A stretch of DNA of 58,345 nt from an uncultured Pedobacter sp. (lineage in GTDB: Bacteria; Bacteroidota; Bacteroidia; Sphingobacteriales; Sphingobacteriaceae), in NCBI GenBank assembly GCA_946478755.1, contig CAMLDJ010000004.1, forward strand, positions 1 through 58,345. Reading direction: 5' to 3'. Position numbers and translations under genes: made by a program. How positions within the stretch are numbered: the stretch's first letter is position 1; every line of letters begins with the position of its first letter. Below, in pieces: positions 17,434 to 57,906 of this stretch. Under the pieces are notes generated by a model, which saw only the letters and a program-made list of their open reading frames with translations, had not been told where the DNA came from and did no database searches.

Positions 17434-17988
17434 TTACGCTTTCATTATACGGTCTTTAACCTTCATAGCAGGGTTACCCTGATAAATAACATAAGGCAAT
17501 AAGTCTTTAGTAGCCACACTTCCCATCGTTAAAACTGCATGACTATGCAGGGTTACACCAGGACCAACTGTAGCTGCGGCACCAATCCAAGCCCCATCTT
17601 CCAGCACAATGGGACCGGTCATTAAGTCGAAATTTGTGAGGCTATAATTGTGATTTCCGGTAATGAGAACAGCCTGTTGCGAGATACAGCAGTTTTTTCC
17701 AATTTTTACCTGGTCCAAATTGTCTACATAACAATCAGCGAGCCAGCTATAATCGCCGATTTCCATTTTCCATGGATATTTAATGTGGATGCCTGGTTTT
17801 ATGCGCACCTCTTTGCCAATCCTGCTACCGAATAACCGTAACAGAGCAACCAGTACCGAACTGACGGGCATCAAACGGCTCTTAAAAAAAATAACATCGG
17901 TAAAGTACCATAAAACCTGCTTGAGGATGGGCGCACCAACCTTAAAATTGCCAGTATCAAAATTCTTGTGTAGCTGGGTTTTTGTCAA
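17434..17988 (-). CDS. WcaF-like acetyltransferase (left-handed beta-helix, exopolysaccharide)
   Basis: A 184-residue protein when started at the TTG at 17988 (TKTQLHKNFDTGNF follows), 10 nt after the exosortase stop. A longer frame reaching into the exosortase gene is rejected as an overlap artefact. The N-terminal part LKQVLWYFTDVIFFKSRLMP is characteristic of the WcaF/colanic-acid acetyltransferase group, followed by hexapeptide repeats (VRIKPGIHIKYPWKMEIGDY, VKIGKNCCIS, VLEDGAWIGAAATVGPGVTL) and the catalytic His in TGNHNY. It probably O-acetylates a sugar of the polymer using acetyl-CoA in the cytoplasm. It is the last gene of the operon. Confidence 0.85.
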   Translation of the reverse strand: MTKTQLHKNFDTGNFKVGAPILKQVLWYFTDVIFFKSRLMPVSSVLVALLRLFGSRIGKEVRIKPGIHIKYPWKMEIGDYSWLADCYVDNLDQVKIGKNCCISQQAVLITGNHNYSLTNFDLMTGPIVLEDGAWIGAAATVGPGVTLHSHAVLTMGSVATKDLLPYVIYQGNPAMKVKDRIMKA

Positions 17989-17998
17989 ATTTTCCGCT

Positions 17999-18595
17999 TT
18001 ATTTGTTGTTGGCAATGGTGTGATTTTTAACTGATTTATTGCTTTTCTTGATCCAAAAATATAACATCGCGAAAATGCAGATGTATACAATGATATTAAA
18101 TATTTCGTGGTGATAGGTAAAATTGTTCCGCTGCGATTTAAAGAATCCCAGTAATACGCCCAAACCTGCAATACGCAATACATTCAGAACATAGATAGCA
18201 ATAAAACCGATAATCAGCATTTTAAAAGTAGATTTCCATGGCGCAGGAAATGCCAGTACAAAAGCGGCCAAAAAACTCATTACGCCAAGGCCAAGGCAGG
18301 AATAATTCACACGCAGATAAGGGCCGGCTACTACCATAACGTCCATTTCGTTATGAATGGCATAAAAGCCAAAAGCCTTAATAATCCATACCGCAGGTAC
18401 AATTAATGCTGTTTTTAAACCTTGAATATAATCAAAGTGATCAGCAATATAGGCATTATAAAATCTGGAACCGGGTGTCATCACGCTATTCATAAACAGA
18501 TTACCCTGGCTAAACAGGATGTATAATATAAACAGGGCAACCACAAATTTGATGGCCTTTTTATTCGCTTCCTTTTTTGCTTCTTCTGGGGTCAT
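17999..18595 (-). CDS. xrtY: Exosortase (XrtY-type), membrane transpeptidase
   Basis: A 198-residue multi-pass protein, the usual length for a short exosortase. The three catalytic residues of the family are visible: Cys100 in NYSCLGLGVMSF, Arg141 in YVLNVLRIAGL and a His at 162/163 in NFTYHHEIFN. The N-terminus is a charged cytoplasmic tail, then about six helices. Exosortases recognise C-terminal sorting tails, cleave them and are thought to attach the protein to a surface polymer. The XrtY label rests on the neighbours (Wzy-like protein and GT4 just upstream) and remembered family context. Candidate substrates are the five small proteins at 51673-55320. Confidence 0.85.
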   Translation of the reverse strand: MTPEEAKKEANKKAIKFVVALFILYILFSQGNLFMNSVMTPGSRFYNAYIADHFDYIQGLKTALIVPAVWIIKAFGFYAIHNEMDVMVVAGPYLRVNYSCLGLGVMSFLAAFVLAFPAPWKSTFKMLIIGFIAIYVLNVLRIAGLGVLLGFFKSQRNNFTYHHEIFNIIVYICIFAMLYFWIKKSNKSVKNHTIANNK

Positions 18596-18616: not shown

Positions 18617-19471
18617 TTAACTTCTGTTTTTTTGAATGACTTTAATTTTTTTATCTACCAGTTTTCTAAACCAGAAACCCTGTAGATAATGGAATTTAAT
18701 TCCCGTGGAGCCCTCAAATATACCGAGTTTAAAAAACATGCGGTAGCCAAAGTAAAGATAGGGACGAAATCCAAGCGGAAGTTTCCACCACAATTGTTTT
18801 AACCATGCCCGCTTTTCATCAGGACTGCCCAATAAGTTAGGTTTTAAACTTTGGAACCGTAGTTTTAACATCCTTTCTACCTCTTCTTGCGCAACAAGAT
18901 CACTATAACGCTCGTGTTTGGCTTTCCAAAAGGCTATATCATTCTCTTTTAGGTTTTCTTCCAAAATCCAGCCTTTCTTCCAGATTTTGGTCTTGCCCGG
19001 TACAATAAAACGGTGATCCATATTCTCGTTCAGATCAGAAAAACCGATCCCTGTCCTGAACATTTTTAAAAGGTAAAAAGGATAGAAGGTACCAAACCTG
19101 ATCCAGCTTCCCTGAAAGAAATTTTTGCGGTTAAAGTAAATGCCGTTAATATCGAGGTGGTCTTCATATTTAAAATTGGCCAGCATTTCGAACAGCTCGG
19201 GTGTAACGGTTTGATCTGCATCGAGGCCGATTATCCAGGGTGTTTCTACTTTAAAGTTTTTTAAAGCGAAATCCCATTGTTTCGGATGGTTTATAAAAGG
19301 GTTTTGTTTTACCTCCGCACCATAGCGATCTGCAATTTTCAAGGTTTCGTCGGTACTTCCGCTGTCCAAAATGAATATCCGGGCATTTAGCGCTTTAATA
19401 GATTCCAGTAATCTGGGCAGATGGATCTGCTCATTAAAGGTTAAAATGATAAAGCTAAAATTTCGGTTCAT
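18617..19471 (-). CDS. GT2 glycosyltransferase (WaaE/LgtF-like)
   Basis: A 284-residue protein from ATG 19471. The GT-A fold starts at FSFIILTFNEQIHLPRLLES with LDSGSTDETLKIA, and the metal-binding motif is DAD at 84-86 (IIGLDADQTV). The later part (ENMDHRFIVPGKTKIWKKGW, then FWKAKHERYSDLVAQEEVER) is the pattern of glucosyl/heptosyl-adding enzymes such as WaaE. It would transfer a sugar from a nucleotide donor to the growing lipid-linked unit at the inner face of the membrane. It lies just upstream of the exosortase in transcription. Confidence 0.85.
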   Translation of the reverse strand: MNRNFSFIILTFNEQIHLPRLLESIKALNARIFILDSGSTDETLKIADRYGAEVKQNPFINHPKQWDFALKNFKVETPWIIGLDADQTVTPELFEMLANFKYEDHLDINGIYFNRKNFFQGSWIRFGTFYPFYLLKMFRTGIGFSDLNENMDHRFIVPGKTKIWKKGWILEENLKENDIAFWKAKHERYSDLVAQEEVERMLKLRFQSLKPNLLGSPDEKRAWLKQLWWKLPLGFRPYLYFGYRMFFKLGIFEGSTGIKFHYLQGFWFRKLVDKKIKVIQKNRS

Positions 19472-19478
19472 ATCAGGG

Positions 19479-20714
19479 TTAAAGTGCTGTTGGGCTGGCT
19501 AGAATTTCTTTGTAAAGTTCAACATATTGTTTAACCAATGTATCATCGTTAAAATCAGCATTGATTTGCAATGGAGCAGCAGTTCTGATTTCTTTTCTTT
19601 TTTCAACATCCTGATAAGCCTGAATTATTCCAGTTTTGATCTCTTCAATGTTTAATCCAGTAACCAATCCCAGGTTCTTATCAGCCACATAATCGGCAAG
19701 ACCAACAAATTTACTGATGAGTACTGGTGTACCCACACTTAAACTTTCAACTACTACATTAGCGAAATTTTCGTTGTAAGAGGTGAGGACTGTTAGATCA
19801 TGCCTTGCCATTAAGTTAAACTTATGCTCGTTACCTACCTGTCCAACCCAATTAATTCGATTGTTTAGTGCTAAATGCTCAGCTTTATATTTTAAACTTT
19901 GTACATATTCTTCCTTACCTGTACCACCAATGGTTAACTGCCAGGGAATATTAACAAGTGTTAAAGCTTCAAAAAGCAATTCAAGCCCTTTCTTCTCTTC
20001 GATGCGGGAAAGAAAAATTAAACGAAATGGAGAATCATCAACCGCTAATGATTCGTGAGATACAGCCAACTGCGAATTGAAAACTGGTAACTGAGAATTA
20101 ACTAAATTGGATATTACAGTAATACTTTTTGGCGTAATTATCCTGAGTATGTCCTGCTTCTCTTGTTCACTGGTGGCATGAATATGGCAATATTTTAATA
20201 AAGTTTCACCCATTAATTTATGGATGATTCTTTTTGAAAAAGAATTCCGGTTACCAAACGTATAAGAGGTGAGCATTCCCCGTGGGGACAAAACAACGGG
20301 TATTTTATACCACTTGGCAACCAAACAGCTTAATACCGAAACTAAATTCCACCAGGCATGGATGTGTACAACCAGTTTGTCATCCTTATCACTTATCTTG
20401 TCACCCTGAATGCAATGAAGGATCTCTTTCCGTAAATTCAATAACAGCCCAGGTGAAAAATGACTATGGTCTTTAGTCCAGCGTTTAAAATAGCTAACTT
20501 TTACTCCATCGACTAAAGTAGTTTTGCCTATGGCTACGTCTAGCTCAGATGTTCCGTTTGCTGTAGTCGTTAAAACATGTAAGTCAACTTCGCTTTCCGC
20601 CTCACGCTTGTCGCTTAGCGCTGCCAATGCTTCGCACAATTTCGAAACGCTCTGAATAGGTCCGCCATAGGTGTAGGCTGGTTTGTAAGAAGCAGTGATG
20701 TGAATAATTTTCAA
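19479..20714 (-). CDS. GT4 glycosyltransferase, exosortase-associated type, with in-frame repeat insertions
   Basis: A 411-residue GT-B enzyme. N-terminal half: IIHITASYKPAYTYGGPIQS, HIHAWWNL and VLSPRGMLTSYTFG. C-terminal half: LIFLSRIEEKKGLELLFEAL and the donor-binding NFANVVVESLSVGTPVLIS. The start is TTG at 20714, with no ATG nearby. Its place beside the Wzy-like and exosortase genes fits the GT4 that accompanies XrtY systems. It has three unusual inserts compared with the family layout: SDKREAESEV after CEALAAL, a charged ILHCIQGDKISDKDDKL segment before VHIHAWWNL, and a SQLPVFNSQLAVSHESLAV segment before the LSRIEEKKG block. Each corresponds at DNA level to a repeat-like sequence. Confidence 0.85.
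   Translation of the reverse strand: MKIIHITASYKPAYTYGGPIQSVSKLCEALAALSDKREAESEVDLHVLTTTANGTSELDVAIGKTTLVDGVKVSYFKRWTKDHSHFSPGLLLNLRKEILHCIQGDKISDKDDKLVVHIHAWWNLVSVLSCLVAKWYKIPVVLSPRGMLTSYTFGNRNSFSKRIIHKLMGETLLKYCHIHATSEQEKQDILRIITPKSITVISNLVNSQLPVFNSQLAVSHESLAVDDSPFRLIFLSRIEEKKGLELLFEALTLVNIPWQLTIGGTGKEEYVQSLKYKAEHLALNNRINWVGQVGNEHKFNLMARHDLTVLTSYNENFANVVVESLSVGTPVLISKFVGLADYVADKNLGLVTGLNIEEIKTGIIQAYQDVEKRKEIRTAAPLQINADFNDDTLVKQYVELYKEILASPTAL
20040..20110. repeat. Repeat-like tract encoding SQLPVFNSQLAV inside a GT4 gene
   Basis: On the coding strand this reads AATTCTCAGTTACCAGTTTT then CAATTCGCAGTTGGC, built of related CAGTT/CAATT words. It adds about 20 residues to the GT4 at 19479-20714 between the two Rossmann halves. 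Confidence 0.6.
20385..20430. repeat. Repeat fragment (GTCACCCTGAATGCAATGAA) inside a GT4 gene
   Basis: Plus strand CTTATCTTGTCACCCTGAAT then GCAATGAAGGATCTCTTTCC; its start resembles GTCACCCTGAATTTATTTCA at 16703-16722. It adds an in-frame charged segment to the glycosyltransferase at 19479-20714. Confidence 0.6.
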
Positions 20715-20771: not shown

Positions 20772-22184
20772 CTAATCAAACACAGGTTTAAGTACTTTTA
20801 TGGTTCTGAGCAGATAAAATAGGAACCACATAATTACATAACCCCAAAAAATATTGTTGAACATAAATTCGAAGTTATTTCCTCTCCAAAGACCTTGGAA
20901 AATACTATTGAACATAATCACACAGCCTAGCTCGTACCCCCCAAATATTTCTTCAGCTTTATCTGATAGGTGTTGTACCAGCATTCCATAGAGTAACATA
21001 AAGAAGAAAACCCCTGGAATACCGAAGCTTAAATAAGCATCAACTACAGGGCGGGTTTTAGCAGAAACTGCCGACATTTTATGCGCCACACCGGCATCAT
21101 AAACCCGTTGCATCGAAACGGTTTCCATATTGGGCTTTCCTGACCAAAAAATTCTGGGTATAAGCCCTTCTAAGGAGTTTTCTACAATCTCCCAGTCGTA
21201 ATAGGGATGATGATCAGGTACAAAGTCTACAAATTGCGTAAACATTTCTATTTCACTCAGTCGTTTGGTAAGGAAACCCCAGTTGGTATCTTCAATCTGT
21301 TCTTCATTTTTTGAATCTAAATTTTCAAACGCCTGGTTTTGTGCCTCTTCAGCACTTACCTCACCGCTCCAACTTTGCCGAACGGTATTGTTATAGGTTG
21401 GCAAGAAATAAAGTAACACATAAGCTACTGGGATTGTCAAGTAAAGGATCAACTTCTTGTAATAAGGAAAAAATACACAGGCAATAACAATAATATTGAT
21501 GATAATAGGTTCTTTATAGCCCGATAACGAAGCATGGATAAAGTTAAGAATGAAAATTGTGGCGCCTATGCCCAGGTATTTAATGTTTTTGGTATTAAAT
21601 CCCTTAACAAATAATACAGCTGCACAAGATATTCCGACCAAAGTAAGTGGGAGGGCAATTTGGCTAAGCCCTGAAAAACGTTGAGCCAGTGAACCAATAC
21701 CAAACACAATAATGCTCAGCCAGATCAAAAAATCATCACCCTCAAAAGCTTTTACACTTTTAATTTTTATAGTATTCTTTTGTACTAATAGCATGCCTGT
21801 AACTAGTGTAGCATGAGCCAATAAACTCATTCGTTGGCAACTGGCAATCAATGCAGTTTGTTCACTTTCTTTAAACTGTGCCCCATAATTAACTTCCGTT
21901 AAATACCGGTAACCCAAATGATCCATAAAATAAAATATGGAAGTGGTGCACATAAATCCAGCAAAAATAAGCTGTGTAAGAAATATGGGCCGCATAATCT
22001 GCTTATGGATAGGTAAATCCTGCTTAATAATAGCAGCTGGCGACAGTATAGTGGTGTAAAAGATAAAGAGCGAGCCAAACCAAGCAACAAAATAAGATAT
22101 GATGGGGCTATTGATTAATAAATAGGAAACCAGAACAGGAACGTAAAGTGTTAAAATAAGTCTTGTAGGGGTATTATTTTGCAT
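20772..22184 (-). CDS. Wzy-like polymerase/ligase, exosortase-associated
   Basis: A 470-residue inner-membrane protein with about 12 hydrophobic segments, a large loop around residues 245-330 (TYNNTVRQSWSGEVSAEEAQ, then acidic sequence) and conserved-looking ends (GIPGVFFFMLLYGMLVQHLS; GLWRGNNFEFMFNNIFWGYV). Segment number, length and the long periplasmic loop agree with Wzy polymerases and O-antigen ligases. Such Wzy-like proteins accompany XrtY exosortases, where they may polymerise or ligate the repeat unit. It overlaps the upstream GT4 by 11 bp. Confidence 0.75.
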   Translation of the reverse strand: MQNNTPTRLILTLYVPVLVSYLLINSPIISYFVAWFGSLFIFYTTILSPAAIIKQDLPIHKQIMRPIFLTQLIFAGFMCTTSIFYFMDHLGYRYLTEVNYGAQFKESEQTALIASCQRMSLLAHATLVTGMLLVQKNTIKIKSVKAFEGDDFLIWLSIIVFGIGSLAQRFSGLSQIALPLTLVGISCAAVLFVKGFNTKNIKYLGIGATIFILNFIHASLSGYKEPIIINIIVIACVFFPYYKKLILYLTIPVAYVLLYFLPTYNNTVRQSWSGEVSAEEAQNQAFENLDSKNEEQIEDTNWGFLTKRLSEIEMFTQFVDFVPDHHPYYDWEIVENSLEGLIPRIFWSGKPNMETVSMQRVYDAGVAHKMSAVSAKTRPVVDAYLSFGIPGVFFFMLLYGMLVQHLSDKAEEIFGGYELGCVIMFNSIFQGLWRGNNFEFMFNNIFWGYVIMWFLFYLLRTIKVLKPVFD

Positions 22185-47476: not shown

Positions 47477-47980
47477 CTAAAGCGGTTCTATAAAAGCTAC
47501 CGATGTATTAATATTTATCGAATAACCCATGTTTTGTAAACGTAAAATAATACGCTGTTTATTGTGCACAGATACCAATTCGGCAATTATGCCTTTAAAA
47601 GGTCCGGCTTTAATCAATACGCTTTCACCTGGTTTAATGTCGTAATCAATGAGTTCCAGATCGGCGTCTGTAGCGAGCAAGAGCTTAAGGTCATGGATTT
47701 GTTGGTCAGGAATAGAAGCGACTTGGCTGGAGAAATAAATAAATCTGGCAACACCATTGGTCATCAAAACTTCTGCATATTCTCTCGCCGAAATATACGC
47801 AAATAGATAAGAATTAATCAAGGGCTCTTCGACGATTTTTTTACGGTCACTCCATTGCTTAACTGCCTTTTTAAGAGGTAAATAAGTTTGGATTCCTTTC
47901 CTGTTCAATTCTTCATTCGCTTTTTTTTCTGCTCTCGAACGTGTATAAACCGGATACCATCTGTAATTTTGATCTATCAT
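47477..47980 (-). CDS. UpxY/NusG-like transcription antiterminator
   Basis: A 167-residue NusG-family protein from ATG 47980. The NGN domain is clear: YRWYPVYTRSRAEKKANEEL, GIQTYLPLKKAVKQWSDRKK, PLINSYLFAYIS, followed by the KOW-like C-terminal part PGESVLIKAGPFKGIIAELV. UpxY proteins in Bacteroides act in cis on their own capsule operon, letting RNA polymerase read through terminators. Here it stands third in a 34-kb operon, so it probably supports transcription of the distal genes. Usually it is first in capsule loci. Confidence 0.87.
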   Translation of the reverse strand: MIDQNYRWYPVYTRSRAEKKANEELNRKGIQTYLPLKKAVKQWSDRKKIVEEPLINSYLFAYISAREYAEVLMTNGVARFIYFSSQVASIPDQQIHDLKLLLATDADLELIDYDIKPGESVLIKAGPFKGIIAELVSVHNKQRIILRLQNMGYSININTSVAFIEPL

Positions 47981-48000
47981 TATACTATATCAATGATTAA

Positions 48001-48100
48001 ACTCCATCTTCTAAATTAACCAATCTAAACGGTTAAGCGATTAACCCTTTCCGTCTTCCATTTCTAACCACTAATCCCTACCCCCTAAACCAATTAACCC
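48001..48100. repeat. CTAACC/TAAACC-rich intergenic tract
   Basis: Gap 47981-48093 contains TCTAAACGGTTAAGCGATTA, ACCCTTTCCGTCTTCC and CTAACCACTAATCCCTACCC; same style as the tracts at 20722, 42933 and 43425. No ORF. Confidence 0.55.
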
Positions 48101-50502
48101 TTTCTTTTCCAAAATTCCCACCAGCTCTTCTCATCATCGTAATAGCCACTTTTTCCATAACCTGTGTAATTAGAATAGTAGTATGTTCCGGTATTACTAT
48201 GGGCATAATTGGTGGTATAAATGTTTGCATGTAACTTCTCATCGCCAAATGAATTTAAAATAATGGCAATATTGTTAAGCCCATATTCTTTTGATAAACG
48301 ATCAGGAATGGTGGCAGCTCTGAATTTAGAAACGCCTGATCGGATAATAAATAGATTAATATCAGCCTTTCTAATAAGTGGTACAGAATCTGAAACCAGG
48401 CCTACAGGAGCGGTATCAATAATAATATATTCATAACTTTCCTTAAGCTTTTCAATAAGGACTGACATCGATTTGTGATGCAGCAATTCTGAAGGGTTTG
48501 GAGGCACTGGGCCAGAAGTGATGTAGTCGATATTGTGCCTTTCATCGGTAAAGATAATATCGGCTAAATCGGCCTGTTTTGATAAATAACTACTTAAACC
48601 AATGTGGTTGTCAGAACCAAAGGCAAGGTGAAGTTTAGATTTTCGTAAATCTGCGGCAACCAGAATCACTTTCTTATCTATGATGGATAGGGTTCCTGCA
48701 AGATTTAAACTTACGAACGATTTTCCTTCACCAGAAATTTCAGAAGTGATACAGATTACTTTAGTGTCCTGATCACTCGCCATAAAGCTCAGATTCGTTC
48801 TCACCGATCTAACCGATTCAGCAAATATTGATTTTGGCCGTTCTATCGACAAAACACTTTGGCCTGGTTGAACTTTTTTGGGATATTTTAAAATTACGCC
48901 AATAATTGGGGTTGCGGTTAGACCCTCGATGGTTTCGATATCGTAGAGATAAGGATTTAATATCCTGACCAATAGAATTAAGCCCAGCCCCGAAAACAAA
49001 CCCATAAATAAATAAGAAGAATAAATTTTCTTGGGCACGGGAGAAATCGGGAAAAAAGAAGGCTGTGCTGCGCTAATAATTGTAGCACCCGAAATTACGG
49101 CTGCTGAGCTGATCTGTGCGGAGAGTTTTCGTTCAAATAACATCGAAAACATACGTTGGTTGATATCGAAATTACTCTGCAATTTTGCAAAATCATTTTG
49201 TTTGGCCGGTATGCTGCCCAATGCCTGATTTGCCTGGCCAATCTGTTCATTAATGTAACTGATTGTTTTTTGGTTACGCTCATGTAATAAACGGATATTG
49301 GTTACAATGGCCTGCTTTACTTCATTAATCTGCCGGTTAATATCCTGAATGGGCTGAGCATCGGCATTAAAATTCTGTAACTTATTTTCTCTATTAATGA
49401 TAAGCCCATTAAGCTGTGTAATTAAACCGGTTAAGAGGGTACTATTAGTGCCTTCCAGGTTAAGATTAAGTTGTATTTTATCTTTATTGTTTTTTACCTG
49501 GGTTTCTAATTGTTGGATACCAAGTTCTTGTAATTGTAATTCTGCAATCTGGTTTTGCAGACTGCTCAGCTTCGAATTTCCCAGTTGCCGGTCGCTCGCT
49601 GGATCGATTAATTTATTATCGCTTTGAAAGCTAGAAAGTTTGTTGCCCGATTTATTCACCTGTGCATCTAAAAATGCGATCTGGCTATCCAGGTAATCTA
49701 TAGTTTGTTTGGCCGACCTTTTCTTAAGCGTTGCATCGTTTTTTACATATTGTTTAATGATCTCATTGAGCACATCGGCAGAGAAAACAGGATTGCTATC
49801 CGTGTGGGTAACACCCATAATATTGGTGTTTTTCTCCTGTTCGAATACATTTAATCCCCCTGCAGCTCTGCCATACAAATCTCTGATCCCGTTGAATTTA
49901 AAACTGTAATTGCCGGTGGACGGAATTTCGGTTTTAACCGTAAATACCATATTTCCAGCATTAATCGCTTGCCCATAACGGTACTTTTTTGAACTCTTGT
50001 TATTGTCGTCGCTACTCGATAATTCAAAGGTTTTACTATCAACCGGCTTAGCAGAATAGGTAGCTCTACTGAAATTAACAGAATCCTGGGTTAAAATATC
50101 AACTTGAAAAGGCTGTTTCGGATAAAGTTCAGTCACCCGTACCCTTCCTTCTAAATAGTAGCTAATTTTATAGTCAAGATTCTTTAATGCGTTTAAAATT
50201 ACGTCTTCCGAACGCATAATGATTCCCTCAGTCTGAATCTGGTTTTGATTAAAGGGGCGATAATTTACAGGCGAGCCTGGAAGTGGAGCCATTTGCTGCT
50301 GCTGATCGCCATCTAACTTTAGCGAAGCAGAAGTAATATAAATAGGGGTAATGCTGCGTACATATAACCAGGCCATCACAAAACTGATCAATACCGTTCC
50401 GGCAACCCAATACCACCTGCTTAGAAAAATCAACGCGATTTTCCAATAGTTAATGGTCTGGTTAGCTAACTTCTTATTTTCGGTTGGTGTAGTATTATCC
50501 AT
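48094..50502 (-). CDS. wzc: Polysaccharide co-polymerase/tyrosine autokinase, Wzc type
   Basis: An 802-residue inner-membrane protein. N-terminal Wzz domain with the first helix at about residues 31-50, a long periplasmic coiled part, the second helix at about 494-515, then a BY-kinase domain: Walker A in TSEISGEGKSF (K594), Walker A' VILVAADLRKSKL (D618) and Walker B YIIIDTAPVGLVSD (692-705). The C-terminus holds a tyrosine cluster (Y774-776, 779, 782, 787, 788), the site of autophosphorylation. It controls chain length and export together with Wza. It overlaps the wza stop as TAATG. Confidence 0.92.
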   Translation of the reverse strand: MDNTTPTENKKLANQTINYWKIALIFLSRWYWVAGTVLISFVMAWLYVRSITPIYITSASLKLDGDQQQQMAPLPGSPVNYRPFNQNQIQTEGIIMRSEDVILNALKNLDYKISYYLEGRVRVTELYPKQPFQVDILTQDSVNFSRATYSAKPVDSKTFELSSSDDNNKSSKKYRYGQAINAGNMVFTVKTEIPSTGNYSFKFNGIRDLYGRAAGGLNVFEQEKNTNIMGVTHTDSNPVFSADVLNEIIKQYVKNDATLKKRSAKQTIDYLDSQIAFLDAQVNKSGNKLSSFQSDNKLIDPASDRQLGNSKLSSLQNQIAELQLQELGIQQLETQVKNNKDKIQLNLNLEGTNSTLLTGLITQLNGLIINRENKLQNFNADAQPIQDINRQINEVKQAIVTNIRLLHERNQKTISYINEQIGQANQALGSIPAKQNDFAKLQSNFDINQRMFSMLFERKLSAQISSAAVISGATIISAAQPSFFPISPVPKKIYSSYLFMGLFSGLGLILLVRILNPYLYDIETIEGLTATPIIGVILKYPKKVQPGQSVLSIERPKSIFAESVRSVRTNLSFMASDQDTKVICITSEISGEGKSFVSLNLAGTLSIIDKKVILVAADLRKSKLHLAFGSDNHIGLSSYLSKQADLADIIFTDERHNIDYITSGPVPPNPSELLHHKSMSVLIEKLKESYEYIIIDTAPVGLVSDSVPLIRKADINLFIIRSGVSKFRAATIPDRLSKEYGLNNIAIILNSFGDEKLHANIYTTNYAHSNTGTYYYSNYTGYGKSGYYDDEKSWWEFWKRKG

Positions 50503-51317
50503 TAGCGGGTTAAGGTAAAGATTAATACAGCCAGATTGACTACCACAAGCAGCGGTTGTACGATATTATTAACACTTGTTAGCTTTTCGCTCAATGCCGA
50601 GCTTTTGGTTTGCTGCAGTACAATAATGTCATTATTCTGAAGAACCAATTTTTTACTGGCCAAACTGTTGATATCATTCAGGTTGACATAAATAATTTCC
50701 GGATGGCTTCTATCGCCACGGATAATTTTCAGGGTCTTAGGGTCTGCGGTTTTGTTAATTCCTCCTGCTTCACCAATAATATCAATTAAGGTAGTGTTTT
50801 CGCGTTCCAGTAAAAAATTTCCTTGTTTACTGAATTCTCCCAATAAGGTAACCTTTAAATTTACCACACTAAGCTCAATAATTGGATCGCGCAGTAATTG
50901 TTTGGCATATAAATCCTGAATTTTAATGGCAGCATCCCGCCTGCTAAGGCCTAATACCTCCACTTTTCCGATGGCTGGAAGGTTTACTTTCCCATCGGTA
51001 TCTACTAAGTAAGAAAGGGTATTATTGATGGATCCACTTGCTGTTTGGTTACCGCTTGTACTACTGTTGGCAGAGGCCGTGGCACCAAATTCTTTATTTT
51101 GCAGGTTTCGGATGGCCAACTGATCATTCACCTTTATTTTATAGTAGGCATCACTAATGCCCTGATCGTTTACCACATATACCTGTTTAATGGTATCGGT
51201 AACTACATCACTCGGGGCGTTAAACAGACTATGCTCTTTTCTGGAAGCACAACCTACAAAAATTGAGCAAATGAATAAAATACAGACAGATTTTAATATT
51301 GCTTTTGTTGGGATCAT
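50502..51317 (-). CDS. wza: Outer-membrane polysaccharide export lipoprotein, Wza type
   Basis: A 271-residue lipoprotein from the ATG at 51317 (MIPTKAILKSVCILFICSIF, lipobox FVGC, lipidated Cys23); a start 30 bp upstream would add an unneeded extension. The polysaccharide export domain follows (AYYKIKVNDQLAIRNLQNKE), then LVDTDGKVNLPAIGKVEVLG and an SLBB domain (VNLKVTLLGEFSKQGNFLLE). A C-terminal hydrophobic helix (LLVVVNLAVLIFTLTR) takes the place of the Wza outer-membrane helix. It is the first gene of the operon. Confidence 0.9.
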   Translation of the reverse strand: MIPTKAILKSVCILFICSIFVGCASRKEHSLFNAPSDVVTDTIKQVYVVNDQGISDAYYKIKVNDQLAIRNLQNKEFGATASANSSTSGNQTASGSINNTLSYLVDTDGKVNLPAIGKVEVLGLSRRDAAIKIQDLYAKQLLRDPIIELSVVNLKVTLLGEFSKQGNFLLERENTTLIDIIGEAGGINKTADPKTLKIIRGDRSHPEIIYVNLNDINSLASKKLVLQNNDIIVLQQTKSSALSEKLTSVNNIVQPLLVVVNLAVLIFTLTR

Positions 51318-51348
51318 AATTTGGGATGAGGAAATAGGTTTGTGCAAT

Positions 51349-51672: not shown

Positions 51673-52026
51673 ATGGCCAAGTTTGTTTTTCTACTGTTGT
51701 CGATTATGTTTTGTTGGTCGAAAGTCGATGCTGATACCGGTTGTTCTTACAATGGATACGTTTATACCAGAGCGCCATATATCCTCAATTGGTATTGGTC
51801 TGTTCCAATTCAGGATAACTGCCCTTCAGGTGCGCTCCATTCTACCCAATACGCAAATGTTTCTGCCACTTCTGCAACTCCTTGTTCTGTCGGACTTTTC
51901 GCATGGGGAGTGCAAGTCAATTATGCAATTGATTTTTGTCCTTTGGATGATTTTATTTGGTTAGTGGCCATTATAAGTGGATTTTTTGGTTATGTGTTTA
52001 TCCACAAGAAAACTCATTTTTATTAA
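51673..52026 (+). CDS. Small four-Cys secreted protein with exosortase-type sorting tail (copy 1)
   Basis: A 117-residue protein from ATG 51673. Signal peptide to about residue 20 (VDA|DTGC). The mature part has exactly four Cys: C24, C50, C71 and C89. The start DTGCSYNGYVYT resembles DTGCKLPNGKIY of the copy at 54898. The tail is FCPLDD (88-93), then one hydrophobic helix (FIWLVAIISGFFGYVFI) and basic HKK. This layout, motif then helix then positive end, is that of exosortase sorting signals such as PEP-CTERM. It is monocistronic, with its own hairpin at 52034. Molecular role unknown. Confidence 0.8.
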   Translation: MAKFVFLLLSIMFCWSKVDADTGCSYNGYVYTRAPYILNWYWSVPIQDNCPSGALHSTQYANVSATSATPCSVGLFAWGVQVNYAIDFCPLDDFIWLVAIISGFFGYVFIHKKTHFY

Positions 52027-52033
52027 CTTTTTC

Positions 52034-52062
52034 ATCTTTGTTTAATACATAAACAAAGAGAT
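52034..52062 (+). terminator. Hairpin after copy 1
   Basis: TCTTTGTTTA (52035-52044) pairs perfectly with TAAACAAAGA (52050-52059), loop 5 nt, beginning 8 bp after the stop of the gene at 51673. It is AT-rich and has no strong T-run, so termination is likely but not certain. The rest of gap 52063-52421 shows no gene. Confidence 0.45.
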
Positions 52063-52421
52063 AGTTATTTCTACGGCTCAAGTAGAATGCTATCAGGACT
52101 TTCAGATGGGGCTATACTTTAAATGGTTCTACAAAAACCGGGAAAAGTTTATACGATTTCAACTGCCTGAAATTTGCTGTGGTTTTCTCTTGCGCTGTTC
52201 TACAGCTATTTCTTAGCGCAATTATGCATTTAGGCTTCACAATAGGCAATTTGTTTTTGATACAAATAAATATTAAAATGTTGTTGATAGCATACATGTT
52301 GATTCATCAACATGCAAGTGTTTAAACCGTTGGTGTCTGGAACTACCGGATTTAATTCTTAAGCGCTTTTATCAAACAAAAAATGTTATTGACCTATTTA
52401 TTGATTTAATCAGATCCAGGT

Positions 52422-52904
52422 TCAATTTTCGGCAGAACAGCCAATAATATTTTTATTTTTTCTTTTAAAATGAAAAAAAACAAGCATTGAAGAGGAGAGG
52501 AGTAGTAGGTAAATGTTTGTATCTAAAGGACATACTATAGTAAAGTTTACTTTAGATGGATTGTGTACAGTTGATGCGTAGTCGAACTTATTAATGTCGC
52601 AGCCAATCGCAACTGTACCAGAGCCATTGGGGCTCGGCCCAATAAAATCGTTACCACCACTTACACACCCTGAGGGAACAGAGGTATCATCGCTAAATAT
52701 ATACCGGTATTCTGTGATGTAACCTGAGTTATTTGGATCGTAAACATATACGTTTCTAATCCACCTGGTATACATTCTGCCACCTACGAGGCAACCATTT
52801 GGTGGACTAGGGACTGAACTGATAGGGATTGAGGCGAAACAGCTTACACTGCACAACAGACCCATACAAATTATTGTAACGGCTAAACCGATAAATTTAC
52901 GCAT
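52422..52904 (-). CDS. Small four-Cys secreted protein with exosortase-type sorting tail (copy 2)
   Basis: A 160-residue protein from ATG 52904, opposite in direction to the other copies. Signal peptide to about residue 24 (CFA|SIP). Four Cys in the mature part before the tail: C38 (NGCLVGGRMYT), C80 (SGCVSGG), C102 (IGCDIN) and C125. The tail is CPLDT (125-129), a helix of about 16 residues (IYLLLLSSSMLVFFHF) and KRKNK, then ten more residues with one extra Cys after the helix. It is the longest tail of the set. Same layout as the neighbours but with little sequence identity outside the tail and GC-G-YT start. Confidence 0.75.
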   Translation of the reverse strand: MRKFIGLAVTIICMGLLCSVSCFASIPISSVPSPPNGCLVGGRMYTRWIRNVYVYDPNNSGYITEYRYIFSDDTSVPSGCVSGGNDFIGPSPNGSGTVAIGCDINKFDYASTVHNPSKVNFTIVCPLDTNIYLLLLSSSMLVFFHFKRKNKNIIGCSAEN

Positions 52905-53119
52905 CTTCTAGAAATAAATGACTAAGGGTGCAAATATAAGCTTTTATAAGGCTAAGCCGTAAGATTTTATAACCGAAAAACTATCATTAATTACTTTTTA
53001 ATGGTTTGCTAGGCTCATTGGCAAGGTTATAATTCATGTTTTAAAGTGCTTCTAGAGAATCAATTACTACGTGCGCGGCTGTGCACTTTTCGTTTTGTAT
53101 TATCCCTAGCTATACGGAG

Positions 53120-53227
53120 TAAAACTACATTGTAGATTGTCCGATAGACGATTACGCTTGGTCTCTAATTTTTTCCGCGGGATTATTTAGGGTATATTTC
53201 ATTCGAAACAGCAAAAAATTCTTATAA
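53120..53227 (+). pseudogene. Decayed sixth four-Cys tail gene (tail only)
   Basis: In one frame the plus strand encodes, from a stop at 53120-53122 to the stop TAA at 53225-53227, NYIVDCPIDDYAWSLIFS then AGLFRVYFIRNSKKFL. This is a complete sorting tail (CPIDD, helix, basic end) most like copies 1 and 5. Just upstream another frame reads YGVKL, matching WGVQVNY before the tail of copy 1, so a frameshift and stops have destroyed the gene. No signal peptide is left. A hairpin (GCCTGATT/AATCAGGC, 53253-53276) follows. Nothing else was seen in gap 52905-53487. Confidence 0.6.
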
Positions 53228-53434
53228 GGATTTCTTAATTCATTCTATTTCTGCCTGATTCTTTTCCAAATCAGGCACATTTGTGTAAAATCTCCTCCAT
53301 GGTCGGTGGCTCACAGATCACAACTTAATACCTCCATTTGGGTTATTTTTTATCAAAAAAATCCTTTTCATTACTTATCAATAAGTATATAAGATCGTTA
53401 ATCATGTATGATTAAATTGATTTATAGGTATTAT

Positions 53435-53456
53435 TAACTTTGTTTTGTTATATTTG
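53435..53456 (+). promoter_or_regulatory. Two overlapping TAnnTTTG-type cores before copy 3
   Basis: TAACTTTG (53435-53442) and TATATTTG (53449-53456) both match the -7 consensus of Bacteroidota; the ATG is at 53488. No clear -33 TTTG was found. Tentative. Confidence 0.35.
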
Positions 53457-53487
53457 TACTACGTAATCATCCCGCCGTCGTCTATGT

Positions 53488-53934
53488 ATGTTATTAAAGG
53501 TTAAGAATTTATTGCTTTTCATTTTTGTTCTATTTTCCTTTTCGGCTATTGCACAAACTAATCCAACAGGATGTATAATTGTATTCCCTTATGGCGCGGT
53601 TGCTGCATTCCCAAGGGTTTACACAACGCTAACAAGTTACTCGGTGCCTACAACAGAGAGCGCTGATATTCAGGGTCTTCCTGTTTATGATGGTTTGGGT
53701 GCTGGTGTAACTGTCAGTTATTCCTGTTATAGAGATCCAATACCCAATTCAACAAGACAATGTGTTGTAAGGGGGACTTCTACTCAATGGTATGGAGGGG
53801 TGTTAGCTCAAAACTTTTATCAGTGTCCCATAGATGATTATATACCCTATATTCTATTGGCAATGGCCGCATTAGGCTTTTCTATAATCAGAAAACAGGC
53901 AGTACGTGGGTTAAGTAATTATAGCTTGTCTTAA
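53488..53934 (+). CDS. Small four-Cys secreted protein with exosortase-type sorting tail (copy 3)
   Basis: A 148-residue protein from ATG 53488. Signal peptide to residue 23 (AIAQ). Four mature Cys: C29 (PTGCIIVFPYG), C80 (YSCYRDP), C92 (RQCVVRG) and C113. The tail is QCPIDDYI (112-119), a helix (PYILLAMAALGFSIIRK) and basic ends, then RGLSNYSLS. The ectodomain has many Thr, Ser, Tyr and Val residues with beta-strand character. It is probably monocistronic; no partner gene within 250 bp. An exosortase substrate is inferred from the tail and context. Confidence 0.78.
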   Translation: MLLKVKNLLLFIFVLFSFSAIAQTNPTGCIIVFPYGAVAAFPRVYTTLTSYSVPTTESADIQGLPVYDGLGAGVTVSYSCYRDPIPNSTRQCVVRGTSTQWYGGVLAQNFYQCPIDDYIPYILLAMAALGFSIIRKQAVRGLSNYSLS

Positions 53935-54212
53935 ATCTTTTTTCTAACCGACATTGAACTCGTCTTATTCATTTTGTTCATGATAATTGTCAATAGGTCG
54001 ATTGTTGGCAGTTATAACCTCTATTTTCCAAAAGATCCCTCTAAGCATCATTAGGTTAGCTTTTTAATCAAATTAGGATCGACAATAGCTCGACCAATTA
54101 TTTATTTAATGTCTTTTTTTAAAAACCAAATTAAAAGGTATGGCGTGCACCCTCTTTTTATTTGCAATATTTGCATTTAATGTAGTTTTAAAGCTACTGA
54201 TTTTTGGTTTTT

Positions 54213-54794
54213 ATGAAGTTTTTGTTGTCTATTTCTATCCTTGTTTTAGGTTCTTTTTTTAATTTATTATTTGCTCAAACCACTGGAAGAGGATGTAATC
54301 TTGGTAGTAGCGTTGCCACTGAATATTTGGGAATGGCTACTTATAATGGAAGTGCTGATCAAAAGGTTTATGTATATAGCTCTTCCTCCTCAACAATTAT
54401 CGGCATTGCATTTGGGCAGGGCTATAGCGGTTATAGGTGTGGATACATTAATATATATGATGGAGGAGCAAGGTGGGATTCCGCTACTCAGCAGAGTATA
54501 CCTTACCAGGCCGTAAACGAAATAATAAATAATTATGCAAACGATGAATCACATAGATGTGTTACGGCTTTATCGCTTAGCCAGAACTTCGTAAGTGGTC
54601 AGGGCGGAGAGGGTTATGAGGCAGATTACAGTTATAATAATCCTGCTTATTATTCAAATAACGACCCTAACTATCCTTGCAATACACCCCCTAACAATCT
54701 TCCGGTAGATCAAAATGTTATATTTATGCTTTTACCATTAGGCCTTTTCGGCTTTTGGAAAGTTAGAAAGAAATCTGAAAGCTATCTGGTTTAA
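54213..54794 (+). CDS. Small four-Cys secreted protein with divergent sorting tail (copy 4)
   Basis: A 193-residue protein from the ATG at 54213; an in-frame TTG 9 bp earlier adds MVF and is not preferred. Signal peptide to about residue 22 (LFAQ). Four mature Cys: C28 (GRGCNLG), C76 (YRCGYI), C116 (HRCVTA) and C156 (YPCNTPP). Here the last Cys is seven residues before the tail motif PVDQN (164-168) rather than next to it. The helix FMLLPLGLFGFWKV and RKK follow. The ectodomain is longer and rich in Tyr, Ser, Asn and Gly (NNPAYYSNNDPNYP). It is the most divergent copy. Confidence 0.75.
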   Translation: MKFLLSISILVLGSFFNLLFAQTTGRGCNLGSSVATEYLGMATYNGSADQKVYVYSSSSSTIIGIAFGQGYSGYRCGYINIYDGGARWDSATQQSIPYQAVNEIINNYANDESHRCVTALSLSQNFVSGQGGEGYEADYSYNNPAYYSNNDPNYPCNTPPNNLPVDQNVIFMLLPLGLFGFWKVRKKSESYLV

Positions 54795-54897
54795 GCTAGA
54801 TAGGGTAGTTGGGTGTAAATCTTAAAGCATCATTATTGAACAAAACGAACGTAGTTTGTAGTTCATTACAGTAGTAACTTCGCATAACAATGCGGAG

Positions 54898-55320
54898 ATG
54901 TACTACATGAAATACTTTTTTATAGGTCTTTTTTTGTTGTCTTGTAATCTTGAAGCTAGTGCGGATACAGGATGCAAGTTGCCTAATGGTAAGATCTACG
55001 GGCCACAAACGGGAACCGCTTTGCTTGGAGCTACATTAATCCCTCTGAATTTGGGTATTTTAGTTCCTCTTTACAATTCACCCGAGATTTCACAAATTCC
55101 GGGCGCATGCCCTGGGTATGCAAATACTCCTGTAAGCCTTGGAACTCCTTGTACTACATCTGCACTAACCATACTGGGTTTGGGGCTTGTTGCACAAAAT
55201 GAGGGAGTGGAATTTTCTTACTCGTTTGTGAACTGTAATTTAGATGATTACACTTGGGCCCTTGGTGCCGCCGCGGGTCTATTCGGCGTATTCATCATCA
55301 AAAGAAGAAACAAACTATAA
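54898..55320 (+). CDS. Small four-Cys secreted protein with exosortase-type sorting tail (copy 5)
   Basis: A 140-residue protein from ATG 54898 or the in-frame ATG at 54907. Signal peptide to about residue 22 (EASA|DTGC). Four mature Cys: C26, C71, C85 and C113. The start DTGCKLPNGKIYG and the later TPCTTS block match copy 1 (DTGCSYNGYVYT, TPCSVG), so copies 1 and 5 are close paralogues. The tail is NCNLDDYTW (112-120), helix ALGAAAGLFGVFII and KRRNK. Asn replaces Pro in the tail motif. It lies 111 bp before the GT2 gene at 55432, same strand. Confidence 0.8.
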   Translation: MYYMKYFFIGLFLLSCNLEASADTGCKLPNGKIYGPQTGTALLGATLIPLNLGILVPLYNSPEISQIPGACPGYANTPVSLGTPCTTSALTILGLGLVAQNEGVEFSYSFVNCNLDDYTWALGAAAGLFGVFIIKRRNKL

Positions 55321-55431
55321 ATCATCTTTGTCGGCTCGGATAGGAAACTATTCGGCATATGTAAAGCTATTCTTTATCTTTACCACAGTTTTCTGCTTAA
55401 AAAAAAGCCGGAGCATCGCTGTTTGGTAACC

Positions 55432-56172
55432 ATGAAGATATCCCTTATTACAGTCGTTTACAATGGAGAAACATTCTTGCAAGCGTGTTTTAATTCGGTA
55501 ATGGCGCAAACCTATCTAGATGTAGAATACCTGGTGATTGATGGGGGATCGACAGACCGGACGTTGAGTATTATTCAGGAGAACCAATCTGCCATTGATT
55601 ATTTTGTTTCAGAAGAAGATAAAGGTTTGTACGATGCTATTAATAAAGGGATCCAGAGGGCAACAGGTGAGGTGATCGGGATTTTAAATGCCGATGATTT
55701 ATTTGCACACCCTGATGTGTTGGCATTAGTAGCCAAAACCTTTATCGATCAGCCGAAAATAGATGGGCTTTATGGCGACCTCAATTACATCCATCCCACA
55801 ACACATAAAACGATCAGGACGTGGAAGTCATGGCAAAATACCTTTCAGGATCTTAAAAAAGGCTGGATGCCCGCGCACCCCACACTGTATTTGAAAAAAT
55901 CGTTGTTTGAAAAAAATGGCGATTATGCCTTAGATATGGGCACCGCTGCCGATTACGAATTAATAATACGTTACTTTTATACCCACAAAATAGAAGCGGT
56001 TTATCTGCCTATTTTAATGGTGAATATGCGCATGGGAGGGGTAAGCAACCAATCTGTGATGAGCAGGGTCTCTGCCTTTATTAATGATTATAAAGCCTTA
56101 AAAAGGAATAAGATGCCTTTGCCTTTTTGGGTATTGCTAAAGAAAAAATTAAGCAAACTCAGCCAATTTTAA
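55432..56172 (+). CDS. GT2 glycosyltransferase (WcaE-like branch)
   Basis: A 246-residue protein from the ATG at 55432 (MKISLITVVYNGETFLQACF); the TTG three codons upstream is not needed. Motifs: YLVIDGGSTDRTLSIIQENQ, YFVSEEDKGLYDAINKGIQR and GILNADDLFAHPDVLALVAK with NADD as metal site. It belongs to the same subgroup as the GT2 at 35751, and probably adds a sugar to the same polymer. It is the first gene after the tail-protein cluster and ends before a repeat block. Confidence 0.9.
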   Translation: MKISLITVVYNGETFLQACFNSVMAQTYLDVEYLVIDGGSTDRTLSIIQENQSAIDYFVSEEDKGLYDAINKGIQRATGEVIGILNADDLFAHPDVLALVAKTFIDQPKIDGLYGDLNYIHPTTHKTIRTWKSWQNTFQDLKKGWMPAHPTLYLKKSLFEKNGDYALDMGTAADYELIIRYFYTHKIEAVYLPILMVNMRMGGVSNQSVMSRVSAFINDYKALKRNKMPLPFWVLLKKKLSKLSQF

Positions 56173-56826: not shown

Positions 56827-57906
56827 TTGCTAAAAGATATTCTGAATACCAGCCCTGACTATTTCTGTATAGCCATATTTATTTTGGCCTTTTCAATCGT
56901 AATTATTAGTATTCCAAGTATAATCTATACTTCTTTAAAATATGGCCTTTTTGATAAGAACGACCTGTACCGTAAAAACCATAAACGTAATATTTCGCGT
57001 TTAGGCGGCTTGGCCATTGTAGGTAGTTTTACCGTATGTATCTTGCTTTTTTCGGCCATTATTAATTTTAAAGAAGCTAATTTCTTAATTGCATCGTGCA
57101 TCATCCTTGCGGCACTTGGCCTAAAAGACGATGTTTATGGCACCAATACCAGTACAAAATTTATTCTGCAGATCGTAGTGGCCTTTATCCTGGTTTTTTT
57201 TGGTGCTTTCCGTTTAACAAGTTTGTATGGTGTATTGGGCATAGGAGATATGGCGCCTTTATGGGGAAGCTTTTTTTCGATTGCATTGATTATTTTCCTG
57301 AATAATGCATTTAATTTAATAGATGGCATTGACGGATTGGCAGGTGGGATCGGCATTTTAACGAGCCTGGCTTTCGGTATTTTGTTTTCTTTGATGGGAC
57401 AAGTACCCTATGCATTTATAGCCTTTGCACTGGCAGGTGCTATAGCAGGCTTTTTAAAATACAATTGGTTTCCTGCAAAAATATTTATGGGCGATACGGG
57501 TGCACTGATCATCGGGCTTATTTCTGCTGCCCTGGCCATTAAGTTTATAGAACTCAATAAGTTTACCGGAGGAAATAAGCCAGCCTTTTATTCGGCCCCG
57601 GCAATAGCTGTTGCCATCCTTATTGTACCGATATTCGATTCTTTAAGGGTTTTTATCATCCGTATTTTAAAAGGAGGTTCTCCGTTTAAAGGCGACCGCA
57701 ACCATATCCACCACCGTTTAGAGCAGTTGGGTTTTAAACCAAGCTTGATCGTAATTTCTACTGCCGGGTTTAACCTGGCTACAATAGCTGCTACTGTTAT
57801 TCTTCAGCATCTTGGTAATTTCGTGCTGATTTTGCTCATTATTGGTCTCTGCATTGCGTTCAATACCATACTCACCTTAAGTCTGCTTAAAAAGAAAGGC
57901 AGGTAA
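56827..57906 (+). CDS. WecA/MraY-type phosphoglycosyltransferase (initiating enzyme)
   Basis: A 359-residue inner-membrane protein with about ten hydrophobic segments. No early ATG exists; TTG 56827 follows a stop at 56821. Family landmarks: RKNHKRNISRLGGLAIVGSF, GLKDDVYGTNTSTKFILQ (the DD pair), NNAFNLIDGIDGLAGGIG (catalytic NxxNxxDGxDGL), KIFMGDTGALIIGLI and the WecA-like DRNHIHHRLEQLG (HIHH). WecA-type enzymes put the first sugar phosphate, usually GlcNAc-1-P, on undecaprenyl phosphate, which starts polysaccharide synthesis. No such enzyme is in the main operon, so this could be the initiator. Confidence 0.9.
   Translation: MLKDILNTSPDYFCIAIFILAFSIVIISIPSIIYTSLKYGLFDKNDLYRKNHKRNISRLGGLAIVGSFTVCILLFSAIINFKEANFLIASCIILAALGLKDDVYGTNTSTKFILQIVVAFILVFFGAFRLTSLYGVLGIGDMAPLWGSFFSIALIIFLNNAFNLIDGIDGLAGGIGILTSLAFGILFSLMGQVPYAFIAFALAGAIAGFLKYNWFPAKIFMGDTGALIIGLISAALAIKFIELNKFTGGNKPAFYSAPAIAVAILIVPIFDSLRVFIIRILKGGSPFKGDRNHIHHRLEQLGFKPSLIVISTAGFNLATIAATVILQHLGNFVLILLIIGLCIAFNTILTLSLLKKKGR

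Follow-up and report, generated by a model that had tools for sequence, protein, structure and literature searches.

The window analysed here, a stretch of 58,345 nucleotides from an uncultured Pedobacter sp. (contig CAMLDJ010000004.1), encodes between positions 51673 and 55320 five small proteins with a characteristic C-terminal tail (Table 1). With a probability of roughly 0.8 we take these proteins to be clients of the exosortase XrtY, whose gene lies in the same window, and to form part of a variable client island of Pedobacter. A first-pass annotation of this DNA had described five clustered small open reading frames (ORFs) with a signal peptide and a tail composed of a motif, a helix and a basic end, and we find all five as described. 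Each protein starts with a hydrophobic N-terminus and ends in its motif (CPLDD, CPLDT, CPIDD, PVDQN or CNLDD), followed by a single helix and a basic C-terminus, the tails sharing the pattern [P/N]-[LIV]-D-[DTQ]. What that annotation had overlooked is that one of the five is encoded on the opposite strand and that the remnant of a sixth tail lies within the cluster. Of the GC...G..YT start it reported, the GC near the mature start is common to all five proteins and the YT is present in some only.

The five proteins gave no match above chance in Pfam and NCBIfam, with one hit below the cut-off per library. Up to E = 1, four of them are unmatched in NCBIfam, and the fourth protein, called from an alternative TTG start (54204-54794, 196 aa instead of the 193 aa counted from ATG), has one unrelated weak hit. 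The five tails alone, searched against the sorting signals of NCBIfam release 20.0, yielded none over its cut-off and one weak Loki-CTERM hit below it. Searched against 5.8 billion proteins, a profile of the five retrieved 46 at E ≤ 1, and all seven of these which bear an organism name are from Pedobacter. When 35 homologues were added to the five proteins to give profile A3, a second search yielded 36 proteins, of which two had not been retrieved before. Sequence searches of the PDB gave no match with A3 and A6, one chance hit with A5 and just two weak hits (E = 0.05) with XrtY. A literature search covering titles and abstract openings of mostly open-access papers found no named XrtY client.

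Co-occurrence and linkage with XrtY

The exosortase is identified as XrtY by the NCBIfam model NF046083. Its residues C100, R141, R156, H162 and H163 are invariant in 20 aligned sequences, and we take this conserved Cys, Arg and His set to be the catalytic residues of exosortases. Among the matches listed, 20 of the 22 XrtY relatives with an organism name belong to Pedobacter. In a genus sample of 145 genomes the XrtY model matches 98 genomes at E ≤ 1e-3 and 86 over its cut-off; at E ≤ 0.01, 69 genomes contain a match to the client profile A3. Tail proteins are present in all 63 genomes in which XrtY exceeds 205 bits, a split placed afterwards in the XrtY score gap from 200.8 to 209.7 bits, versus 6 of the 82 others. 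A profile of the tails only (A8) finds these 63 and these six genomes again at E ≤ 1e-3 and 19 more at 0.002-0.1. The family sample (301 genomes, tails at E ≤ 1e-3) shows tails in 64 of 113 genomes with XrtY over the cut-off, in 3 of 16 with a weaker match and in 4 of 172 with no match or one below 50 bits. Outside the genus set, 22 of the 62 XrtY genomes of this family possess tails at that threshold and 5 of 62 at E ≤ 1e-5. In a phylum sample of 148 genomes, searched with the tail-only profile at E ≤ 1e-3, tails occur in 3 of 5 genomes with XrtY over the cut-off versus 0 of 143 others, three more genomes showing tails at E values of 0.008-0.009. The tails thus exceed what chance would produce. 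Tails nearly always imply XrtY, and XrtY does not imply these tails. Since many XrtY genomes are devoid of them, other branches of XrtY must have other clients, or few.

The six client genomes outside the 63 comprise G056, whose XrtY is found in two overlapping pieces; G108, which has a 23-residue XrtY match, yet an XrtY-type Wzy over the cut-off; G096, whose five tails are located on a contig numbered 646, from which we conclude that the assembly is fragmented; and G026, G049 and G121, to which we return below.

The first-pass annotation had placed the cluster next to an exosortase and exopolysaccharide (EPS) operon. The cluster does adjoin the EPS operon, namely wza at its 5' end; XrtY is located at the opposite, 3' end of the operon, about 33 kb off and not adjacent. 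The linkage of the two is conserved wherever it is visible. Counted over 148 client matches, among the matches listed, in genomes with an XrtY match, 99 (from 48 genomes) share a contig with XrtY at a distance of up to 60 kb, and 98 of these 99 are situated upstream of XrtY at a distance of 24-48 kb (median 34 kb). By a regular expression (regex) search, clients are found within 10 kb of XrtY in 2 of 54 loci. The same annotation had named the five proteins as substrates of this exosortase and proposed co-occurrence as the check; the NF046083 match, the co-occurrence in all three samples and the conserved linkage speak for this pairing, processing by the enzyme being presumed.

Several points weigh against this reading. 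Apart from the retrospective choice of the 205-bit split, the difference in the genus sample amounts to 63 of 86 versus 6 of 59 genomes at the curated XrtY cut-off of 160 bits, the tail profile was derived from XrtY genomes, and the genomes are related so that their counts are not independent. In the family sample tails at E ≤ 1e-3 are missing from 49 of the 113 genomes with XrtY over the cut-off, and G016 harbours XrtY and an XrtY-type Wzy and no recognised tails. Of the 148 listed client matches, 43 are on other contigs than XrtY and 6 are more than 60 kb away from it. The XrtY frame is interrupted in G029 (one of the 63; G029:C30:19591-20102), which has kept five tail proteins, and in G056 (G056:C29:155509-156025), which has kept eight; these are natural broken copies or assembly errors. 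G026, G049 and G121 each contain a single tail protein but lack an XrtY match, and a search of these genomes revealed neither an exosortase over the TIGR04178 cut-off nor an XrtY-type Wzy. The absence of XrtY from G026 is credible because this genome consists of one contig of 5.43 Mb. Tails in genomes without an exosortase are what the first-pass annotation had named as speaking against its proposal, and these three genomes do so weakly. Furthermore, AlphaFold produced poor models for two ectodomain types (mean pLDDT 46.9 and 52.5). Finally, processing by XrtY is a step which we infer.

The probable client island and its variable content

From 40 of the 48 linked genomes 20 kb around the cluster were compared, which together with the window makes 41 loci. 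All 41 show the order upxY, wzc and wza (leftward) followed by a client. After the last client, a glycosyltransferase (GT2) gene and an MraY-like gene are found in 39 loci, with a GAPDH gene beyond them in 38. The island consists of the clients between wza, the first gene of the EPS operon, and GT2, and contains 2 to 7 clients per locus, in total 165, of which 158 were selected by a heuristic for a hydrophobic N-terminus and seven were added by eye. With 159 of the 165 pointing away from the EPS operon, tail protein 2 of the window is one of six clients oriented towards it. The clients fill 53% of the span between the outermost ones, and the 31 other ORFs of at least 90 aa within this span are confined to ten loci. 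At least two of the latter, by their look, are a client lacking the motif D and a client fragment (L086:9757-10251 and L115:7752-8039). The islands of L102, L104 and L105 hold other genes, including ORFs which by eye are repressor-like and small lipoprotein-like, possibly a mobile element. A regex-only search for extra tail proteins in the islands was discarded, as the 61 ORFs it returned are apparent noise, mainly antisense ORFs and GAPDH.

The motif TAnnTTTG, which we take to be a promoter motif of the Bacteroidota type, occurs within 120 nt upstream of 65 of the 165 mechanically called starts (mean 21 and maximum 32 after base shuffling; 9 on the opposite strand), and TATATTTG is found about 34 nt upstream of the start of tail protein 2. 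Many clients are accordingly predicted to possess their own promoter of this type. A paralog with the motif C[NDG][LIF]D, the type of tail protein 5, is present once per locus in 31 of the 41 loci and is the last client on the GT2 side in 27 of these 31. The median identity among these paralogs is 57% in the tails and 28% in the ectodomains.

Exchange of whole genes within the island is not visible from a single window. In 17 pairs of loci whose four flanking proteins average at least 90% identity, 88 of 137 ectodomains have no counterpart, defined by an alignment over 60% of the ectodomain length, and 30 of the 137 have a counterpart at 70% identity or more. While wza and wzc of the window and of L091 are 98% identical, just two of the five clients of the window are common to both; with L088 two clients are common at 94-96%, similar to the flanks. 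The ectodomain of tail protein 1 has counterparts at 79% in L091 and at 96% in L088. The client set thus changes mainly by whole-gene replacement and not by fast point substitution. Single-linkage clustering of the ectodomains merged 107 of the 165 and was of no use for defining families, so that counterparts were counted instead.

Fourteen relic tails are scattered over the 41 islands. In G016, G337 and G333, three XrtY genomes without recognised tails, wza and GT2 are separated by 245, 131 and 113 bp, respectively, and the MraY-like and GAPDH genes follow. In G228 the gap is below about 0.5 kb, wza crossing the edge of the examined stretch. The short gap is the same site as the island, nearly empty, whereby loss and gain are not distinguishable. 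The search for clients of XrtY loci without islands covered stretches upstream of XrtY in G016, G122, G337, G228 and G333 and, in addition, seven XrtY loci, but recognised none; wza is seen in the upstream stretches of all these five genomes except G122.

Single ectodomain types extend beyond the genus or combine with different tails. The Mucilaginibacter genome G005 encodes a type C relative of tail protein 3 (L174:10655-11080), and two genomes outside the genus set (L172, L175) have tail proteins whose ectodomains are of other kinds. Some homologues of tail protein 4 carry LPIDDY tails on the same type D ectodomain. That one ectodomain type occurs with two kinds of tail, LPVDQN and LPIDDY (P0130 versus P0146), points to tails being exchanged between clients or drifting.

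Being small, rich in Cys and encoded by genes exchanged in a relic-bearing swap locus, the proteins could also be secreted antagonistic peptides, whose variability would arise from strain competition and whose tail would serve transport. Such cassettes, however, are not accompanied by a partner gene each, since the 31 other ORFs of at least 90 aa are found in just ten of the 41 islands, and the proteins match no named family in Pfam or NCBIfam. We regard antagonism as very unlikely and retain the assignment of the five proteins as XrtY clients.

Tail motif, cysteines and relation to known sorting signals

By the heuristic used, 158 of the 165 proteins have a hydrophobic N-terminus as putative signal peptide, the other seven having been accepted by eye, and the column counts of the 165 tails reveal a short motif, one helix and a basic extreme C-terminus, features which also served as selection criterion. 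Within the motif, D is found in 165 of 165 tails (the motif search required it), the preceding P in 121, the second D in 122 and a subsequent Y in 100. If the C-terminal helix were a permanent inner-membrane anchor, the linkage to EPS genes historical and XrtY an enzyme acting on other proteins, no motif would be needed; yet, besides the D imposed by the search, the preceding P and the following D recur in 121 and 122 of 165 tails, and the tails track the presence of XrtY. Such plain bitopic anchors would agree with the 49 of 113 XrtY genomes of the family which lack these tails, with the small proteins of another look whose P[LI]DD tails adjoin XrtY in L047 and L182, and with the fact that cleavage of the tail proteins is a deduction; on balance, we hold this explanation to be unlikely compared with recognition of the tail by XrtY.

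The first-pass annotation had counted exactly four Cys before each tail. For the window this is correct if the Cys of the motif is included: the fourth Cys is the first motif residue in four of the five proteins and is located seven residues upstream of PVDQN in the fifth, a placement which recurs in homologues. Among the 46 homologues exactly four Cys stand between the first GC and the tail in 43; one of the remaining three is N-terminally truncated, and two are four-Cys proteins with CSIDD or CAIDD missed by the regex. As a rule for the whole family it fails, since the mature part contains four Cys in 107 of the 165 proteins, six in 45, eight in 5, two in 1 and an odd number in 7. The count is thus even in 158 of 165 when the signal peptide is removed by an explicit (-3,-1) rule, which leaves the seven odd ones; a crude boundary leaves 24 of 165 and counting from the first xC pair 13. 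Inspection by eye attributes four of the seven to a wrongly placed cut and two to frames that are truncated or start at the wrong position, so that only L105:5922-6296 looks genuinely odd. The first motif position is occupied by Cys in 121 of the 165 proteins. In the 44 motifs without it the total is even (two or four mature Cys) without exception, and the last Cys is mostly found 2-8 residues upstream (in one case 21). Since the count is even in 158 of 165 proteins, and in 44 of 44 without a motif Cys, the motif Cys seems to complete the disulfides of the ectodomain as their last partner and not to belong to the sorting code. The motif as first described is refined accordingly, and a route via a lipidated Cys as in MYXO-CTERM proteins is disfavoured.

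In the myxosortase study (PMC11980579), a lipid is proposed to be attached to an invariant Cys before cleavage, and myxosortase is treated as a CPBP-type protease. According to this study, MYXO-CTERM tails are tripartite and often contain a Cys in the motif, in which the client tails resemble them; unlike in that system, the motif Cys of the clients is not invariant, being missing in 44 of 165, and the enzyme here is an exosortase. Transferred to the clients, the proposal would mean that the tail Cys is lipidated and then cut, XrtY merely trimming a lipoprotein. The Cys at the first motif position in 121 of 165 tails is compatible with this; the Cys-less motifs argue otherwise, because they keep an even total with a Cys nearby upstream, as is to be expected of a motif Cys that forms a disulfide with the ectodomain. 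We therefore consider lipidation improbable and keep to recognition of a tail whose Cys belongs to the ectodomain.

PEP-CTERM proteins, according to Haft et al. (2006, PMC1569441), are diverse, are mostly encoded in single-gene operons and co-occur with EpsH and EPS loci; one species in that study has a few tails but no enzyme. The clients are similar to them in that several diverse proteins per genome combine a signal peptide with a motif-helix-basic tail, mostly as single-gene units, and in that their presence is tied to one exosortase family and EPS loci. They differ in the lack of a PEP motif, in being Cys-rich and small (open frames of at most 212 aa among the listed matches of the tail-only profile and of at most 217 aa among those of A3) and in that many of them are packed into one island between fixed EPS genes and are exchanged as whole genes. 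None of the five window proteins contains a Pro-Glu-Pro motif or matches a PEP-CTERM model.

The PID-CTERM signal (NF046080) resembles the client tails by its P-I-D motif, helix and basic end. Unlike the XrtY clients, PID-CTERM proteins, which end in the tail APIDGGLSLLAAAGGAYAIKKLRDK, are small and have little ectodomain: ten of them (among L184-L195) measure 49-136 aa as mechanically called, seven being shorter than 90 aa, and most of the ten consist of little beyond signal peptide and tail. The tails of the window do not match the PID-CTERM model, the best client tail seen (G135) reaches 18.1 bits at a cut-off of 26, and none of five XrtY genomes is matched. Thirty genomes of the phylum sample exceed the PID-CTERM cut-off; every one of them has a match to the XrtY model as well at E ≤ 1e-3, weak in most cases, which indicates that these genomes possess an exosortase. 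Within a distance of about 1 kb from XrtY, L047:11129-11365 (78 aa) and L182:8241-8534 (97 aa) show PID-CTERM-like P[LI]DD tails with almost no ectodomain. As in the XrtY system of NCBIfam (NF046083-NF046085), the window contains XrtY, the XrtY-associated Wzy and XYAG1, all far over their cut-offs; what goes beyond this system are the five client tails, which no model of NCBIfam release 20.0 recognises. Together with the correlated presence of XrtY in the genus and family samples, the tail set is, as judged from sequence, a member of the broad kind of exosortase signals, which is not PEP-CTERM and is nearest to PID-CTERM.

Putative route to the surface and neighbouring genes

From their sequences, the clients would be exported via Sec and lose their signal peptide, whereupon the ectodomain would form two to four disulfides upon folding, with its last Cys at or just before the motif; the bonding is suggested by the even Cys counts. 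The C-terminal helix is predicted to hold the protein in the inner membrane with [C/L/V]-[P/N/S/D]-[L/I]-D-D-Y outside. XrtY, paired with the tails by co-occurrence and linkage, would then recognise the P-[LI]-D-D motif, cut the tail protein and transfer it to an acceptor; a saccharide or lipid carrier is the probable candidate, provided by the GT2 that adjoins XrtY or is fused to it. The product may reach the surface together with the polymer of the adjacent EPS operon. As whole-gene gain, loss and replacement between wza and the GT2/MraY-like pair, evident from the comparison of loci, vary the set of ectodomains, close relatives would display different surface proteins.

GT2-XrtY fusions are found in the ORFs of L169, L170, L171, L179, L180 and L182, whose GT2 part is 57-73% identical to the GT2 of the window adjoining XrtY. 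In 22 of the 113 family genomes with XrtY over the cut-off, XrtY is contained in an open frame of 473-514 aa; six such long ORFs, five of them from the family sample, were inspected and all are GT2-XrtY fusions. Because GT2 is fused to XrtY elsewhere, these data suggest that it supplies or modifies the acceptor for XrtY.

It is conceivable, albeit doubtful, that the wza-GT2 island represents a surface-diversification locus in which XrtY as the single exosortase, together with the glycosyltransferase sometimes fused to it, displays exchangeable disulfide-stapled proteins on the polymer, with whole-gene replacement changing the surface identity between near-identical strains. If so, this change of identity might be directed against phage or predators or serve kin recognition. 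The exchange of whole genes in any case raises the question of selection for variable surface proteins tied to EPS. Moreover, Pedobacter would offer a defined pair of enzyme and clients, including naturally broken copies and nearly empty sites, so that exosortase cleavage and the attached moiety become testable on small proteins.

Table 1. Location of the tail proteins, the exosortase and EPS genes of the window; the last row refers to loci of other genomes.
Feature	Position	Strand	Description	Basis
Tail protein 1	51673..52026	+	117 aa; ectodomain type A (GCSYNGYVYTRAP...); tail CPLDDFIW..IHKK	ORF
Tail protein 2	52422..52904	-	160 aa; type B (GCLVGGRMYTR...); tail CPLDT..KRK	ORF; 15 homologues aligned
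Decayed sixth tail	53123..53224	+	NYIVDCPIDDYAWSLIFSAGLFRVYFIRNSKKFL; without ectodomain or upstream start	tail profile E = 5.6e-10, stop-to-stop frames; translation
Tail protein 3	53488..53934	+	148 aa; type C (GCIIVFPYGAVA...); tail CPIDDYIPYILL..IRK	ORF; 11 homologues aligned
Tail protein 4	54213..54794	+	193 aa; type D (RGCNLGSSVATEYLG...); tail LPVDQNVIFMLL..VRKK	ORF; 12 homologues aligned
Tail protein 5	54898..55320	+	140 aa; paralog adjoining GT2; tail CNLDDYTWALGAAAGLFGVFIIKRRNKL	ORF
XrtY	17999..18595	-	exosortase, putative processing enzyme	NF046083 246 bits, cut-off 160
GT2	18617..19471	-	glycosyltransferase adjoining XrtY	PF00535 58.3 bits, cut-off 23.3
XYAG1	19479..20714	-	XrtY-associated glycosyltransferase	NF046085 608.9 bits, cut-off 400
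Wzy-like protein	20772..22184	-	XrtY-associated	NF046084 645.2 bits, cut-off 420
UpxY	47477..47980	-	antiterminator near the 5' end of the EPS operon	NF033644 153.3 bits, cut-off 100
Wzc-like protein	48094..50502	-	chain-length protein/tyrosine kinase (name presumed from its sequence)	ORF; same order beside wza in 41/41 loci
Wza-type protein	50502..51347	-	polysaccharide export protein, left island boundary	export models match below cut-off; tail protein adjoins in 41/41 loci
GT2-like protein	55423..56172	+	glycosyltransferase (presumed function), right island boundary	ORF; after last tail protein in 39/41 loci
MraY/WecA-like protein	56827..57906	+	glycosyl-1-phosphate transferase (presumed function), right flank	ORF; same order in the 39 loci showing GT2
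Near-empty island loci	L206, L211, L215 (and L212/L213)		wza-GT2 matches 113-245 bp apart	

Adjacent to the exosortase gene, the acetyltransferase ORF 17434-18183 overlaps XrtY only by virtue of its mechanically assigned upstream start. Since the family match begins at residue 73, the true start of the acetyltransferase is probably located inside this ORF.

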